Assembly (NCBI GenBank): GCA_030037755.1
Contig: JASHQD010000643.1
Span: 1 to 38,442 of the forward strand
Source: Terriglobia bacterium
Lineage (GTDB): Bacteria; Acidobacteriota; Terriglobia; UBA7540
Reading direction: 5' to 3'
Length of the DNA stretch: 38,442 nt
Positions 1 to 16,789 of the stretch are shown piece after piece (the stretch's first letter is position 1; each line of letters opens with the position of its first letter). Under the pieces are notes generated by a model. That model did not search any database and was not told the origin of the DNA. It was given only the letters and a program-made list of their open reading frames with translations. The translations under genes and the position numbers were made by a program.

Positions 1-159
1 GTGGAACATATCTGGGGCTATCTCAAGCAAAACGAACTGCCGAACCTCTGTCCGCGCGACCTGAGCGAACTGAGTACGGCCGCTTGTGCGGCCTTGCGGC
101 GCATGCGGCGTCGGCCCACGCTGGTCACGGCATTCTGGAAGCAGGCCGAGCTGTTTTAA
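1..159 (+). CDS. IS630-type transposase, C-terminal end (cut by window edge)
   Basis: An open frame enters from the left edge and stops at 157-159, giving 52 residues. The start (VEHIWGYLKQNELPN, then CPRDLSEL) matches the end of DDE transposases of the IS630/Tc1 group: the 'ER-W-YLK' stretch carrying the last catalytic acidic residue region, followed by a basic helix. Only the tail is in the window, so I cannot say whether the gene is intact. The AT-rich stretch just after the stop (160-200) is where the insertion sequence's right inverted repeat would be expected, but without the left end I cannot define it. This suggests that the left border of the window is a mobile-element boundary. Confidence 0.7.
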   Translation: MEHIWGYLKQNELPNLCPRDLSELSTAACAALRRMRRRPTLVTAFWKQAELF

Positions 160-280
160 ATGTCACTATATTATGTAATTCTCTTTAAGTCTGGCGCGTC
201 TGCCAATTCCGCCGCTTTCGCCTACGATCCTGCTTCATTGAATAGCCGATTAACGGAGGTTTGTCTATAGGTCCCAGCGT
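160..280. other. AT-rich spacer between transposase end and FmdE-like gene
   Basis: This 121-bp stretch is more AT-rich than its surroundings (ATGTCACTATATTATGTAAT near 160-179). It probably holds the right end of the insertion sequence and perhaps a promoter for the next gene. A GGAGG lies at 255-259, about 21 nt before the TTG at 281 and farther from the GTG at 308, so it does not settle the start of the next gene. Confidence 0.3.
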
Positions 281-11334: not shown

Positions 11335-12471
11335 TCACGGCATCAGAACCTGCTTGTCCTTAACGTCGCTCGACGGCGTGGCGGCGCGCGGCTGCGATTG
11401 GCGCAGCGCGGACTGAATCATCATATACTCGCCGACATTCTCCATGTTCAGCAGCCCGACCAGATGGCCGTCGTGCTCGACCGGAATCGTGCGCACTTTG
11501 GTGGTTCCCAGCATCTTCAGCGCATGATCGAGCATGTCATGCGAGTCGGCGACCTGGAACTCGCGGCGCATGGCTTCGCGCACGTGCAGAGAGGAGCCGT
11601 GCGCGGCCAGCGCCTTCATCAGATCCTCGCGGGTCAGGATGCCGATCACGTGATCGCCGAACACCACGGGAAAGTCGTGCTGGAATCCCGCCAGAACATA
11701 ATCGGTGGCCTGCGCCAGCGTGTCGTCAGGCCGCAAGGTCCGGAAGTCAGTCAGCATCACGCGCTCGACCGGGACGCCGCCGAGCGAGGTCTGCATCTGC
11801 ACCGTGGCCGCTTCACTCTCGGCGCCCATCCAGACAAAGAGCGCGATGAAGAGCAGGAACGGGTCGCGGAACAGGCCGATGAAACCGAAGACGAACGCCA
11901 GCGCCTGGCCGATGTGCGCCGCTTTCAACGTGGCCTGCGTGTAATCCATGCGTGTGGCCAGCAGCGCGCGCAGCACGCGTCCCCCGTCCATGGGAAAGGC
12001 CGGAATCAGGTTGAATCCTGCCAGCCAGAGATTCACGGACATGACGCGCTCAAGGAAATCGCCGTTCACGAGTTCGAGCTGCGAAAACCGCGGATGAATC
12101 CGCAAAGCCGCCATCAGCAGAAAGAGCACGCCGGCGATCACCACGTTCACCGCGGGACCTGCAAGCGCGACCTTCAGCTCCTGCAACGGCTGGTCCGGCA
12201 TGCGTTCCAGTCGCGCCACGCCGCCGATGGGCAGCAGGATGATGTCGCGGGTGCGGATCCCGTAACGGCGCGCCGTCAGCGCGTGCCCGAGCTCGTGCAG
12301 CACGACGCACGCAAAGATCAGCAGAATAAAGACGACCGCAAGCAGTGCATCGTTCAGGTCGTGCTTTTCAGACCAGGACGCGAACAGGATGAATGCCAGC
12401 AGTAGCACGAACGTCGCGTGCATGTAGACGTTGATGCCCGCCAGCCGTCCGATCTTCCAAGACCACCGCAT
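11335..12471 (-). CDS. Site-2-type metalloprotease (M50B) with CBS domain pair
   Basis: Intramembrane zinc protease of the S2P/SpoIVFB group with a cytosolic CBS pair. From ATG 12471 (GAGGGTGG upstream) the protein has 378 residues; the frame extends 177 bp further upstream but without family similarity. HELGH at residues 59-63 holds the zinc ligands and catalytic Glu, and NLIPAFPMDGGR about 100 residues later gives the third ligand Asp. About six TM segments fill residues 15-220. Residues 235-360 form two CBS motifs (VERVMLTDFRTLRPDDTLAQ and VREAMRREFQVADSHD), which usually sense adenine nucleotides. This is the well-known M50-CBS architecture; its substrate, often a membrane-bound regulator, is unknown here. 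Confidence 0.92.
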   Translation of the reverse strand: MRWSWKIGRLAGINVYMHATFVLLLAFILFASWSEKHDLNDALLAVVFILLIFACVVLHELGHALTARRYGIRTRDIILLPIGGVARLERMPDQPLQELKVALAGPAVNVVIAGVLFLLMAALRIHPRFSQLELVNGDFLERVMSVNLWLAGFNLIPAFPMDGGRVLRALLATRMDYTQATLKAAHIGQALAFVFGFIGLFRDPFLLFIALFVWMGAESEAATVQMQTSLGGVPVERVMLTDFRTLRPDDTLAQATDYVLAGFQHDFPVVFGDHVIGILTREDLMKALAAHGSSLHVREAMRREFQVADSHDMLDHALKMLGTTKVRTIPVEHDGHLVGLLNMENVGEYMMIQSALRQSQPRAATPSSDVKDKQVLMP

Positions 12472-12514: not shown

Positions 12515-13021
12515 TCAAGACACGCTGAAAGGCAGCTCGAATTCGACGGTACTGAGCGCCGTCTTTGGGCGGTGAAAATAATCCGGGAGTTCTGACGGGC
12601 TGCTAAAATGTACGGTCCGGCTCCTCTGCTTGTGCGCGAGAGGGGCAAGCCAGATGGGTATCAGGCGATCCTGGCCGTAGGGCAAGCCGAAGCGACGGTG
12701 CGCGGTGATCTCCAGTAGGAAATGACCGTTGCGGCGACTGTAGACAAGTTGGTTTGTAGCAGGCTGCCGTATTGGAAGTCCGCAGAGAACGAAAGGTCTG
12801 GCGTGGTAGGAGACCTCCTGAGCGCCGGTGTCCCGTTGGTCGCGGACAAGTTGAATTGCTTCCAGCCTCCTCAGCGTGTGAGTGCTGATGCCGATGCGCG
12901 GGAGCAGTGCCTTGACGGCCTCGGGGCCACGTTGTGTGGTTTCCTTGGCCCCGTCAGTTGAGGCTGGAACGGCAGTACAGCAGCAATAGGCCGATCCGGA
13001 GCGGGAGGCATCATTGTTCAC
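12515..13021 (-). pseudogene. Truncated plasmid RepA-like replication initiator
   Basis: A 168-residue frame whose middle part resembles the N-terminal half of RepA-type plasmid replication initiators: YHARPFVLCGLPIRQP, RRNGHFLLEITAHRRFGLPY and GQDRLIPIWLAPLA, then SRTVHFSSPSEL. From memory of the family, these segments should be followed by a longer winged-helix region (a YRRL-type stretch), but here the frame runs into LSTVEFELPFSVS and stops, so about half of the protein is missing. The start is GTG 13021 with AAGGG upstream, overlapping by 11 nt the end of another truncated frame. It lies between the M50 gene and a tRNA-Leu fragment, which fits a decayed integrated plasmid. The family call is from recognition of motifs only. 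Confidence 0.6.
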
Positions 13022-13160
13022 CGCCCTTTTCTGGATCGTCCTTCGGTCGTTTCCGCTTGGGAGTTTTCGGTTTGCGCTTGGGTTGCAGATTTTTCCGGGT
13101 TTGTTCGGAGGATGCCGACGTAAGTTGTTGATCTGCTGCAGAATCAGCTTCGGAATCTAA
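13011..13160 (-). pseudogene. C-terminal remnant of an unknown gene, cut at the tRNA fragment
   Basis: On the minus strand, directly upstream of and overlapping the RepA-like start, lies an open tail of about 49 residues ending in a strongly basic, Pro-rich stretch (KRKPKTPKRKRPKDDPEKGG). The frame continues only through the antisense of the tRNA fragment, where its translation is the familiar meaningless tRNA read-through. The tight overlap (the GTG of RepA lies inside the last codons) argues that both belonged to one operon. I do not recognise the family; the upstream gene of an integrative plasmid could be a partition protein, an integrase or something else. Confidence 0.4.
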
Positions 13161-13214
13161 ACTTAGGATCTGGTCCCGCAAGGGGTGGGGGTTCGAGTCC
13201 CCCCTTTCGCACCA
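13161..13214 (+). tRNA. 3' half of tRNA-Leu (TAG), probable attachment-site scar
   Basis: From the anticodon loop (ACTTAGGA, anticodon TAG) to the CCA end, the sequence follows a tRNA-Leu: 3' strand of the anticodon stem, a CCC-GCAA-GGG variable arm typical of class II tRNAs, the T arm with TTCGAGT loop and GGGGG/CCCCC stem, CTTTCGC acceptor strand, A and CCA. The 5' half is absent: the bases before the anticodon loop do not pair with its 3' stem, and no GCGAAAG acceptor strand is found upstream. This is what remains at the far end of an element that integrated by recombination in the anticodon-loop-to-3' part of a tRNA gene. An intact tRNA-Leu is expected upstream of the former element and is not in this window. 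Confidence 0.8.
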
Positions 13215-13249
13215 ATCACTGAGCCCAAAGGACACATGAGGTCCCAGTG

Positions 13250-16200
13250 ATGAGAACCCGGCGCGTTGTGTATCTCGGTTTGGCGCTGGCATTGCCGCTG
13301 ACGGCGCTTCTCGGAGCGAGAGCGATCGCTGCCGCCGAGCAGACGGTTTGGGAGATCGGTCGATTTGACCAATCGTCGGGGGAGTTTCACGCGCGCCCCA
13401 GTTTCCTGAACCCTCACGAGAACCCGATCTTCACCGTCGGCAAGAGCGATGCCTCCAAGGACTGGCCCGCGGAGCAGCCGGGCTCGGCGAACGCGGAAGC
13501 CGGCGGCCGGCCTCATCCCTACACCATCGACTTTGATCTGATGAATCCTCCGCGCGGGACCTTCACGCTGGTGGTTTCCGTGATCCTGCGACAGCCGCGC
13601 GTTCCACGTCTTCAGGTTGAAATCAATGGGCAAACGGGCCTGTTCTACTTTCACCGCAAGGTCAGCGATTACCCCGGTGACGATGGCTTCGACTCGCCGA
13701 TTTATGGCGGAGACGAGCTCGCGATGGTGATCCCCACCGCAGCGCTCCAGCGCGGCCAGAATCGCCTGGTGCTCACGGCCGCGGACGATCCGAAGGACGG
13801 CCCGGGCGACTCGTCCATTCGTTACGACGCCCTGCGGCTGGTGCATAACCCCGAGGCCCGGACTTCGCCCGCGCCTCAGGTTGAAATCGAGCCGACCATT
13901 TTTTACGTGAAGCGTGGCGGCGCGCTTTGCGAACTCGCGGAGGCTACCATAACGCACGACCAGCCCGCCCGCCGCGGAGAGGTGACGTTGACGGTCGCCG
14001 GCAAGAGCCTGAAAGCTGGCTTCGCCCAGGGGCACGATTTCGGCGAGGAGCGCATCGAGTTTGCCGTGCCTGAAGTGAGCGGTCCGACGCCAGTCGAGGC
14101 CGATGTCAGGCTCGACGGCCACGCTTCCAAGTCGCAATTGAGCTTTGTGCCCGAGCGCCACTGGACAATTTTCCTGGCGCCCCACGCGCACCTCGACATC
14201 GGCTTCACCGACTATCAGGCGAAGATCGCGGAGATTCACAACCGCAATCTCGACCGGCTGCTCGATGAGATCGACGCCCATCCCGAGATGCGGTTCAACC
14301 TGGACGGGTCCTGGATCGTTCAGCAGTACTTGTCGTCGCGGAACGAGGCGACCCAGGAACGCCTGTTGAAACTCGTTCGCGAGGGCAAAATCGCCGTCCC
14401 GGTTCAAGTGGCTAACCTGATGACAGGTTACCCGACCCTTGAGGAATTGCTCCGTTCCACCGACTACAGCCGCCATCTGCACGAGCAGTACGGCATTCCC
14501 TTCGACTACGCCAATATCACAGACGTCCCCAGCTACACCTGGTCTTACGCTTCCGTGCTGGCCGCGCTCGGAATCAAGTATTTTTCGGCGGCCGCCAACA
14601 GCGACCGTGGCCCCATCCTGCTCTATGGGCGCTGGAACACCAAATCGCCGTTCTGGTGGCAGGGGCCCGACGGTGAGAAAGTACTGATGTCCTACTCGCG
14701 CCAGTACTCGCAGCTCTGGTTTGTTTGCGGAATACCTCCCGATGAGGCGGGTTGCCGGCAGGCCTTGCCTGCTTTCTTCCAGCAATACGAATCGCCTTCA
14801 TACAAGCCTGACATCGTCTTGCTGTTCGGCAGCCAGTTCGAGAATACATATCTCGTGCCCGGTGAGCGGGAATTTGTCGAGAAATGGAACGCCGAGTACG
14901 CCTATCCCAGAATCCGGATATCCACCTTCCCCGACTTCATGCGCACCATCGACCAGCAGTACGGCTCGGAGCTGGAAACCGTGCGCGGCGACGGCGGCCC
15001 GTACTGGGAGGACGGGTACGGGACCGACGTCCACTACCTCAGCATCGATCGCGCAAATCAGCAGCGTGCGCCCTCCGCCGAGAAGCTTTCGACCATTGCT
15101 ACGTGCCTCGAGAAGAACGTTTCCGGCCCGGCGGAGCAGATTCGCGCCATGTGGAGCGACCTCGTGCTCTACGCCGAACACACCTTCACGTCGTGGGGAG
15201 GCTACTCGAGGCCGGAAAGCGAAGAGACGGTACGGCAGTTCGCGGTGAAGGATCACTTCGCGACCGACGGCCACCTGCGTGTTAACGCCATTCTGGAGCA
15301 GTCGCTCAGCCAGCTTGCGGACCAGATTCGTGTGCCGGCGCCGGCGTTTGTGGTGTTCAATCCTTTGAGCTGGGCCCGCAGCGGCCTTGTCGAGACGGAT
15401 TTGGACGATGGCGACGCCATCCTCGAATATCCGAGCAAGACTCCCGTGCCGTTTGACGTCGTCGCCAGGCACGACGGCTACAGTCGCGTCCGGTTTCTGG
15501 CTCGCGATGTACCTTCGCTTGGCTACCGATGCTATCAGGTGGTCGAGTCGCATGAGGCCGGCGGTGAGGACACCACCGGTACAGTCGCTCTGCCGGGCGG
15601 CGGTGAGGACACCGCCGCTACAGCCGCCCTACCGGCCACGAACGTGATCGAGAATGCGTACTATCGGATCACGGTGGATGCTGCGGCCGGCGGCATCGAG
15701 AGCATCTTCGACAAGCAGCTCAACCGCGAGATCGTGGACGCGTCGAGCCCCTATCGCTTCAACCAGTACCTTTACGTCTCGGGTGGCGATGGAGAGACGC
15801 AGCTCGTCTATCTGCGCAAGTCGCTTCCGCTCGCAAAACTCACCGTGACCGGCGCGGGCGGCGCCACAGACGGCGGACGTCTGGGAAGCCTTCGGCGCAC
15901 ATCCTACGGACAGATTCTGACCTATGAGACGAGCGGCCCCCACGCGCCATCGATCACGACCGAGGTCATTCTCTACGAGGGCCAGAAGCGCATCGACCTG
16001 GTGAACCGCTTGCACAAGGACCCGGTGGACGCCAAGGAAGCGGTCTACTTCGCGTTTCCCGTGGCCGCCGAGCATCCCGACTTCAGTTACGAGATTCAGA
16101 ACGGTTACGTCGATCCGGCGCGCGACCTGCTGACGGGCGCGAATGTCGCCTGGTTCACCGTCCAGCATTGGGTGCGCGTGGCGACGGCAGGGTTGAGTGT

Positions 16201-16789
16201 CGGCCTGGTGCCGGTGGACTCGCCGCTGGTCACGCTCGGCGATATCGTCCGTGGGACGTGGCCGGAGAAGTTCGATCCCAAAACCGGCACGATCTTCTCG
16301 TACGCGATGAACAACTACTGGCATACGAACTTCCGGCGCGTTCAGAACGGAGATTTCACGTTCCGTTATGCGGTAACGAGCGGTAGCGATCCCGGGCCGG
16401 CCGAGTTGTCGCGATTTGGGCGCGACGCGATGACTCCGCTCGAAATGGGCGAATTGGTCCCGAACGACAAGTTCGATAATCCGGAGCGCCCTCTGCAGCC
16501 GGACCCGGCAAGCTTCCTCGCGGTCGATACGCCGGACGTCGTGGTCGAGAATTGGAAAGCCGCCGACGACGGAAAGGGTACGATCATTCGCCTTCTGGAG
16601 ACGGGCGGCGTCGCGGCTACTGCACACCTGACGTTCCCCTTGTTCAACGTCGAGAGCGCCTGGCGGTGCAACGCGGCGGAAGAGAATCAGCAGGCCCTCC
16701 ATCTCTCCGGGCATTCACTCGCCGTTGATGTGAAGCCGTATGAGATCGTCACGCTGCGCGTGGCGGCCATGCTCTCCCGCCGGGAGTAG
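13250..16789 (+). CDS. Secreted GH38-type alpha-mannosidase-like glycoside hydrolase
   Basis: Large (1179 aa) exported glycosidase. A signal peptide (residues 1-30, LALALPLTALLGARAIAAAE) is followed by a beta-sandwich resembling a carbohydrate-binding or lyase-type domain, then the GH38 catalytic region starting near residue 305 with APHAHLDIGF (zinc ligands His about 314 and Asp about 316). TDVPSYTW (Asp about 425) sits where the GH38 nucleophile Asp is expected. The C-terminal half has the GH38 beta domains (NAYYRITVDAAAGGIESIFD and following). The GH38 family splits alpha-mannosidic bonds with retention; substrate here unknown. GAGG at 13238-13241 supports ATG 13250. Two in-frame 13-residue repeats near 770-796 (GGEDTTGTVALPG, GGEDTAATAALPA) come from REP-like DNA. 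The gene begins just after the tRNA-Leu fragment. Confidence 0.85.
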   Translation: MRTRRVVYLGLALALPLTALLGARAIAAAEQTVWEIGRFDQSSGEFHARPSFLNPHENPIFTVGKSDASKDWPAEQPGSANAEAGGRPHPYTIDFDLMNPPRGTFTLVVSVILRQPRVPRLQVEINGQTGLFYFHRKVSDYPGDDGFDSPIYGGDELAMVIPTAALQRGQNRLVLTAADDPKDGPGDSSIRYDALRLVHNPEARTSPAPQVEIEPTIFYVKRGGALCELAEATITHDQPARRGEVTLTVAGKSLKAGFAQGHDFGEERIEFAVPEVSGPTPVEADVRLDGHASKSQLSFVPERHWTIFLAPHAHLDIGFTDYQAKIAEIHNRNLDRLLDEIDAHPEMRFNLDGSWIVQQYLSSRNEATQERLLKLVREGKIAVPVQVANLMTGYPTLEELLRSTDYSRHLHEQYGIPFDYANITDVPSYTWSYASVLAALGIKYFSAAANSDRGPILLYGRWNTKSPFWWQGPDGEKVLMSYSRQYSQLWFVCGIPPDEAGCRQALPAFFQQYESPSYKPDIVLLFGSQFENTYLVPGEREFVEKWNAEYAYPRIRISTFPDFMRTIDQQYGSELETVRGDGGPYWEDGYGTDVHYLSIDRANQQRAPSAEKLSTIATCLEKNVSGPAEQIRAMWSDLVLYAEHTFTSWGGYSRPESEETVRQFAVKDHFATDGHLRVNAILEQSLSQLADQIRVPAPAFVVFNPLSWARSGLVETDLDDGDAILEYPSKTPVPFDVVARHDGYSRVRFLARDVPSLGYRCYQVVESHEAGGEDTTGTVALPGGGEDTAATAALPATNVIENAYYRITVDAAAGGIESIFDKQLNREIVDASSPYRFNQYLYVSGGDGETQLVYLRKSLPLAKLTVTGAGGATDGGRLGSLRRTSYGQILTYETSGPHAPSITTEVILYEGQKRIDLVNRLHKDPVDAKEAVYFAFPVAAEHPDFSYEIQNGYVDPARDLLTGANVAWFTVQHWVRVATAGLSVGLVPVDSPLVTLGDIVRGTWPEKFDPKTGTIFSYAMNNYWHTNFRRVQNGDFTFRYAVTSGSDPGPAELSRFGRDAMTPLEMGELVPNDKFDNPERPLQPDPASFLAVDTPDVVVENWKAADDGKGTIIRLLETGGVAATAHLTFPLFNVESAWRCNAAEENQQALHLSGHSLAVDVKPYEIVTLRVAAMLSRRE
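15561..15638 (+). repeat. Two in-frame 39-bp REP-like repeats inside the GH38 gene
   Basis: Two head-to-tail copies, 39 bp apart, share GCGGTGAGGACACC and a following CGG-TACAG-like part. The core is the same as in the intergenic copies at 9298-9315 (reverse) and 37117-37149. Because 39 is a multiple of three and the copies have no stop in this frame, the gene stays open and the protein gains two 13-residue units in a linker between domains. Confidence 0.75.

Follow-up and report, generated by a model that had tools for sequence, protein, structure and literature searches.

The window analysed here, a 38,442-nucleotide stretch from a Terriglobia bacterium that forms contig C474 of its genome (G000), very probably holds the repA-side border of a plasmid that was site-specifically integrated into the tRNA-Leu(TAG) gene of a soil acidobacterium of Terriglobia/Bryobacterales type and was later broken by reciprocal exchange. 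A tRNA 3' half is systematically paired with the plasmid replication gene in relatives, in which an integrase lies at the intact-tRNA end, and the window can therefore be read as the repA end of such an integrated plasmid.

The distal border of the element is marked by the att core, a tRNA-Leu(TAG) 3' half that occupies 13161..13214 of the plus strand and runs from the anticodon loop to the CCA. The preliminary description of this DNA had reported a 3' half with no 5' half here, and that was borne out, as ARAGORN detected no whole tRNA in the window and the 5' half is absent at 13161-13214. The same description had proposed a search for an intact tRNA ending in the same 54 nucleotides, and an identical 3' end was found. 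Counted back from the CCA, the half matches 54 of 54 nucleotides of a tRNA-Leu(TAG) located at one end of C627, a contig from this same genome; that copy extends into the anticodon stem before the contig ends. The intact tRNA-Leu(TAG) genes of the sister genome G001 and of G002 carry the same 54 nucleotides. The half diverges from the tRNA in the anticodon region, where it reads tctaa before the shared ACTTAGG and the tRNA reads gccag; the TCTAA directly left of the half is common to the Leu-site element of G033 (locus L153), not to the tRNA. In most other pairs of half and intact tRNA, 45-58 nucleotides are identical, with mismatches in two pairs.

Two minus-strand frames had been described to the left of the half, and both are present, at 12515-13021 (168 aa) and 13011-13292 (93 aa). 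The first is the N-terminal half of a repA pseudogene (about 12515-13021) that covers profile positions 8-158, has a frameshift near 12560-12580 and lacks the C-terminal half. It has strong homologues in family-level relatives (E down to 2e-51) and is 63% identical to the full-length rep of L138/L042. Full-length homologues measure about 300-400 aa, which bears out the earlier statement that the window copy is without its second half. The truncated protein itself matched neither the RepA nor the RPA families, its sole Pfam match being a sub-threshold one to MerR, so the full-length homologues were needed for the family assignment. These match RepA_C (PF04796; E down to 4e-12, 37-47 bits against a cut-off of 26) and RPA (PF10134; E down to 5e-7, up to 30 bits against a cut-off of 27), and share about 27% identity with the RepA of plasmids over 96% of their length. 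An AlphaFold model of a full-length homologue, built from 36 homologues (pLDDT 83), was compared with the PDB by Foldseek and displayed a replication-initiator fold, with hits to RctB (E 6e-6) and RepE54 (E about 1e-2) and TM-scores of 0.56-0.60 by target. A PHROGs search of rep gave no informative match. Judged by these homologues and the predicted fold, the window frame is the N-terminal half of a RepA-type plasmid replication initiator, as the preliminary description had suggested.

Matches to rep were found in 13 of the 61 genomes searched (the source genome and 60 relatives), often in several copies per genome. The source genome itself holds a second repA pseudogene (G000:C102:1259-1965, locus L045), which is spread over several frames and has no recognisable tRNA half. 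Two other loci, L229 and L234, are contigs of 15.1 and 13.7 kb with a 95-bp end overlap that carry repA and an integrase and have no tRNA half at repA; they are probably free plasmids of a sister lineage, outside the integrated clade.

The association of rep with tRNA halves was surveyed in GTDB genomes, at 55 named loci that contain 56 rep genes and belong almost all to Acidobacteriota, with 763 kb scanned. At 39 of the 56, a tRNA 3' half precedes rep by 100-450 bp, its CCA pointing away from the gene. The remaining 17 have no correctly oriented half of this pattern; three rep genes beyond the 39 have a tRNA end in the other orientation. Elsewhere in the 763 kb only a single half-like match was seen, and the pairing is far beyond chance. 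Read from the anticodon loop, the halves derive from Leu, Arg (several), Asp, Val, Gly, Thr, Gln and Lys tRNAs, and from Ala in G011. The only gene common to nearly all of the first 21 rep loci is repA (and its antisense). At three loci (L174, L179 and L181), a tRNA-Met 3' end is followed by repA some 240 bp further downstream, the opposite of all other arrangements, and in L174 and L179 the tRNA-Met gene is complete; these are perhaps inverted or represent a different type of integration.

The other end of the element is seen in relatives. A profile search of seven genomes placed integrases of the family on the 3' flank of intact tRNAs, namely those for Gly, Arg, Asp, Ala and Val, nearly always reading towards the tRNA; the source genome supplies one of these cases, at tRNA-Arg(ACG). 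No such integrase was detected beside the tRNA-Leu copy of C627, and contig C4 and the window yielded none either. Single contigs that bear a half, rep and an intact tRNA are L166 (6.6 kb apart), L176 (10.5 kb) and L177 (10 kb), in which the profile used found no integrase. The half and the intact tRNA are in direct orientation on one replicon in these three loci and also on contig C24 of G011. On the latter, an intact tRNA-Ala(GGC) at 151262 is followed on the same strand by three 3' halves at 348, 416 and 450 kb; a tyrosine integrase immediately follows the intact tRNA on its 3' side, a second one has the same position relative to the 348-kb half, and repA adjoins the last half on the left. 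This stretch (G011:C24:151262-450139, L086-L101) thus carries four directly oriented tRNA-Ala 3' ends, two integrases and a single repA across 300 kb, and is an array built by serial integration of elements at one tRNA. Smaller tandem units of 3.8-6.5 kb are present in L156, L158 and L165. Integrase, att and repA are contiguous and run in one direction in L133, L143, L151, L156, L165 and L168, an order that should be expected of a circle or of the junction between tandem copies. In L155, L169 and L172 the order is tRNA, integrase on the minus strand and rep on the plus strand, with int and rep sharing one element end.

Between att and repA, at 13011..13160 of the minus strand, an open frame leads out of the att core to a stop that overlaps the repA start. 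A frame of this kind on the rep strand was seen in the window, in L153 (Leu-TAG) and in L154 (Arg-TCG), the overlap being ATGA in the latter two. The window tail has the same frame and total length (67 codons) as that of L153, and its end is similar in L154. At the intact tRNA-Arg(TCG) of G006, an integrase frame (PF00589, E 2e-13) enters the tRNA in the frame of the L154 tail ('GAPGETRTPDLQIRSL'), and in L205 the integrase frame crosses the att core in that same frame. The window tail had been described as the basic C-terminal end of a protein. The frame is indeed there, but the comparison with L153, L154 and L205 suggests that it probably combines the integrase's C-terminal tail with the ribosome-binding region of repA. 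Once the element is circular, its integrase would then likely end beyond attP and overlap repA. The conserved end of the tail (GGAGGCGA...) is also likely to be the repA ribosome-binding site and may be simply that.

The att-to-repA interval and repA do not point to the same relatives. In the tree, the window repA groups with L138/L139 (support 100/99), of which L138 occupies an Arg-TCT site and L139 is without a half, while the other Leu-TAG element, L153, falls into another clade. The DNA of the interval, in contrast, is 62-64% identical to that of L153/L154/L146, compared with 53-57% for L138 or L134. Sister rep genes in the tree often use different tRNAs. It is possible, though we put it forward only tentatively, that att lies inside an int-repA transcription/translation unit, such that integration would switch replication off and excision would switch it on, and that the att/int module is freely exchanged between rep lineages, which would give one replicon family its many tRNA genes; the coupling of int and repA is read from frames and gene order only.

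The history of the locus after integration is recorded in its left flank. The gene at 11338..12471 (minus strand) encodes a site-2 protease (Peptidase_M50 + CBS), which is a core gene found in single copy in relatives, being present once in 28 of the 41 genomes searched (the source genome included), and is not part of the element. Homology to contig C59 of G001 reaches 12518 and stops where the repA homology ends, which sets the breakpoint at 12516..12518. The missing C-terminal half of repA was found on contig C4 of the same genome (5498-5859), where it picks up at profile position 158, the point at which the window copy breaks off; L042 is the nearest homologue of either half. The reciprocal junction lies at G000:C4:5859/5860, and the 11 bases at this junction, ATTAGCACTGC, equal the 11 bases that follow the window-homologous stretch in G001. 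Beyond these 11 nt the alignment of C4 with G001 is no better than that of shuffled sequences, and it is therefore the anchored position, and not a score, that carries the argument. A glyoxalase-like gene was predicted from G001 to follow the C4 junction; another gene is found there, which calls for a further rearrangement.

With the complementary half on C4, cut at the same codon and flanked as in G001, repA was split by reciprocal exchange and not by deletion, and both halves are now pseudogenes. The exchange partner was the region upstream of the M50 protease gene, and the event was most likely an inversion. The preliminary description had an element enter and later collapse: the entry stands, whereas a plain collapse does not agree with the reciprocal split. 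Its placement of the element to the left of the half agrees with the architecture of the family, but immediately to the left of the scar comes core chromosome. Two simpler candidates were rejected, namely a deletion scar, in view of the complementary half on C4, and a large element extending left through the window, since what flanks the scar on the left is a core gene present in one copy and in synteny with G001. The proposed comparison of related genomes showed that the sister genome G001 is without such an insertion at the same place. To the right of the scar, 13250-16786 encodes a GH38 alpha-mannosidase-like protein with a CBM-like domain, which is multi-copy in some relatives and absent from G001.

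A second piece of tRNA-Leu(TAG), a 5' half, lies at 186..221 of the minus strand (97% identical to the intact G002/G001 tRNA along 36 nt), 12.9 kb left of the 3' half and on the opposite strand. The tRNA expected upstream on the same strand thus has its trace to the left, but in reverse orientation, and the direct arrangement of half and intact tRNA does not hold in the window. A later inversion explains the opposite strand of this 5' half as well as the orientation of the half on C4. The genome is a MAG of 6.68 Mb in 802 contigs, and for that reason the linkage of the window contig, C627 and C4 is one that we infer. The tRNA-Leu copy at 186..221 is itself interrupted at TTA by the 3' end of an IS630-type transposon (1..185, plus strand), a terminal stretch that recurs on contigs C463, C368, C792 and C122 of this genome; the name IS630-type comes from a reading of motifs, the fragment having no Pfam match. 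Within 1-221 the 5' half is cut after GACTTA, and the uninterrupted copy on C627 shares 20 nt with it, which means that the population may be mixed for this insertion.

The integrase end, the repA end, a half and an intact tRNA on one contig, tandem arrays and the contiguity of int, att and repA can all be read from the sequences of relatives, and they suggest the following course of events. The circular form would carry int, attP (the tRNA 3'-half copy) and repA in one direction, and the integrase would act on attP and the tRNA, recombining them from the anticodon loop onwards. The plasmid copy would restore the tRNA on the int side, leaving the displaced 3' half beside repA at the far end, and integration would thereby place int and repA at opposite ends of the element. 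It would also uncouple repA from the int frame, and replication would presumably be active only in the excised circle. In the source genome, repA was afterwards severed at a single codon when it underwent reciprocal exchange with the M50 upstream region, most likely through an inversion.

A single crossover of a circle would produce the same two reciprocal junctions, and an attP-bearing circular plasmid could have entered the chromosome upstream of the M50 gene through illegitimate recombination within its repA, in which case the half would be an unused attP and no chromosomal scar, and plasmid sequence would continue rightwards from 13214. We regard this as unlikely: where att copies lie on an int side, the integrase gene is no more than about 200 bp away, whereas the GH38 alpha-mannosidase-like gene lies right of the half and no integrase does, and an inverted tRNA-Leu 5' half only 12.9 kb away would have to be a coincidence. 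An origin of the half through the IS630-type insertion, which would have cut the tRNA-Leu before a rearrangement brought it near rep by accident, is scarcely credible. Such an insertion did cut the tRNA-Leu piece at 186-221, but the TCTAA left of the 3' half is the context of the integrated Leu-site element in G033, and the pairing of rep and half recurs with many tRNAs in other genomes.

Tyrosine integrases and tRNA 3' ends are also typical of prophages and satellites, and the half and the repA fragment might on that account be the remnants of a prophage or phage satellite rather than of a plasmid. This reading is very improbable given that the initiator belongs to the plasmid families RepA_C/RPA and drew nothing informative from PHROGs, and that relatives occur as circular plasmid-sized contigs. 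The gene content argues in the same direction. The 83 genes on the element side of repA include the AbiE toxin-antitoxin (AbiEii in 6 of 83), HipA, Schlafen/AlbA and metabolic genes, and the commonest Pfam matches among these repA-adjacent genes include no phage structural family. Nor is a relaxase or T4SS family among them. On the opposite side of att, phage-type integrases are the most frequent (6 of 75 genes). Genes for AbiE, HipA and Schlafen/AlbA were noted downstream of repA in L156, L158, L165 and others, and elements as small as these may have a role as stability or defence islands.

The remnant in the window, best explained as the repA border of an integrated plasmid, apparently belongs to a widespread and so far undescribed acidobacterial plasmid family that uses many tRNA genes and keeps repA beside the insertion site. 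Acidobacteriota are among the commonest soil bacteria and, to our knowledge, little is known of their mobile DNA. Such elements can be recognised by a simple signature, a repA gene with a tRNA 3' half next to it, even where metagenome genomes are fragmented; the signature delimits the element ends and brings to light repeated accretion at one tRNA, as with the four att copies over 300 kb in G011. The natural int-attP-repA modules are candidate integrating vectors for hosts with few genetic tools.

The literature searched held no description of integrative plasmids in Acidobacteriota; islands that contain integrases and plasmid-like fragments and lie near tRNA genes have been reported for Solibacter, without such a structure (PMC3174227). 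Elements of this kind are nevertheless already known as integrative plasmids. The available part of the account of the pPDL2/pUT1-type integrative plasmids of Sphingobium (PMC3516476) describes a RepA with an RPA domain and an attP at the 3' end of int1 that recombines site-specifically at the 3' end of a tRNA-Ser, much as here. In contrast to that single tRNA-Ser site in another phylum, many tRNAs are used in Acidobacteriota, and the attP between int and repA and the tandem accretion seen here do not appear in that part of the account. The rep homologues are also only distantly related to proteobacterial plasmid RepA (about 27% identity to the best matches). The 11-kb pHS87b of Pseudomonas aeruginosa is likewise an integrative plasmid with an attP equal to a tRNA 3' end, its 45-bp attP being identical to that of tRNA-Thr, and its free and integrated forms coexist; it differs in its P4-type integrase, an unknown replication gene and an attP reported upstream of int (PMC4739549). 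The archaeal suicidal integrases of SSV1, pTN3 and pT26-2 have att inside the integrase frame, and inversions accompany their integrated copies (PMC8371274), two features that the present element probably shares. Integration in the archaea splits int into two inactive parts, whereas here only the C-terminal tail beyond the catalytic domain would be exchanged. What is new, set against these systems, is the Acidobacteriota family itself, with its attP between int and repA, its wide range of tRNAs and its accretion.
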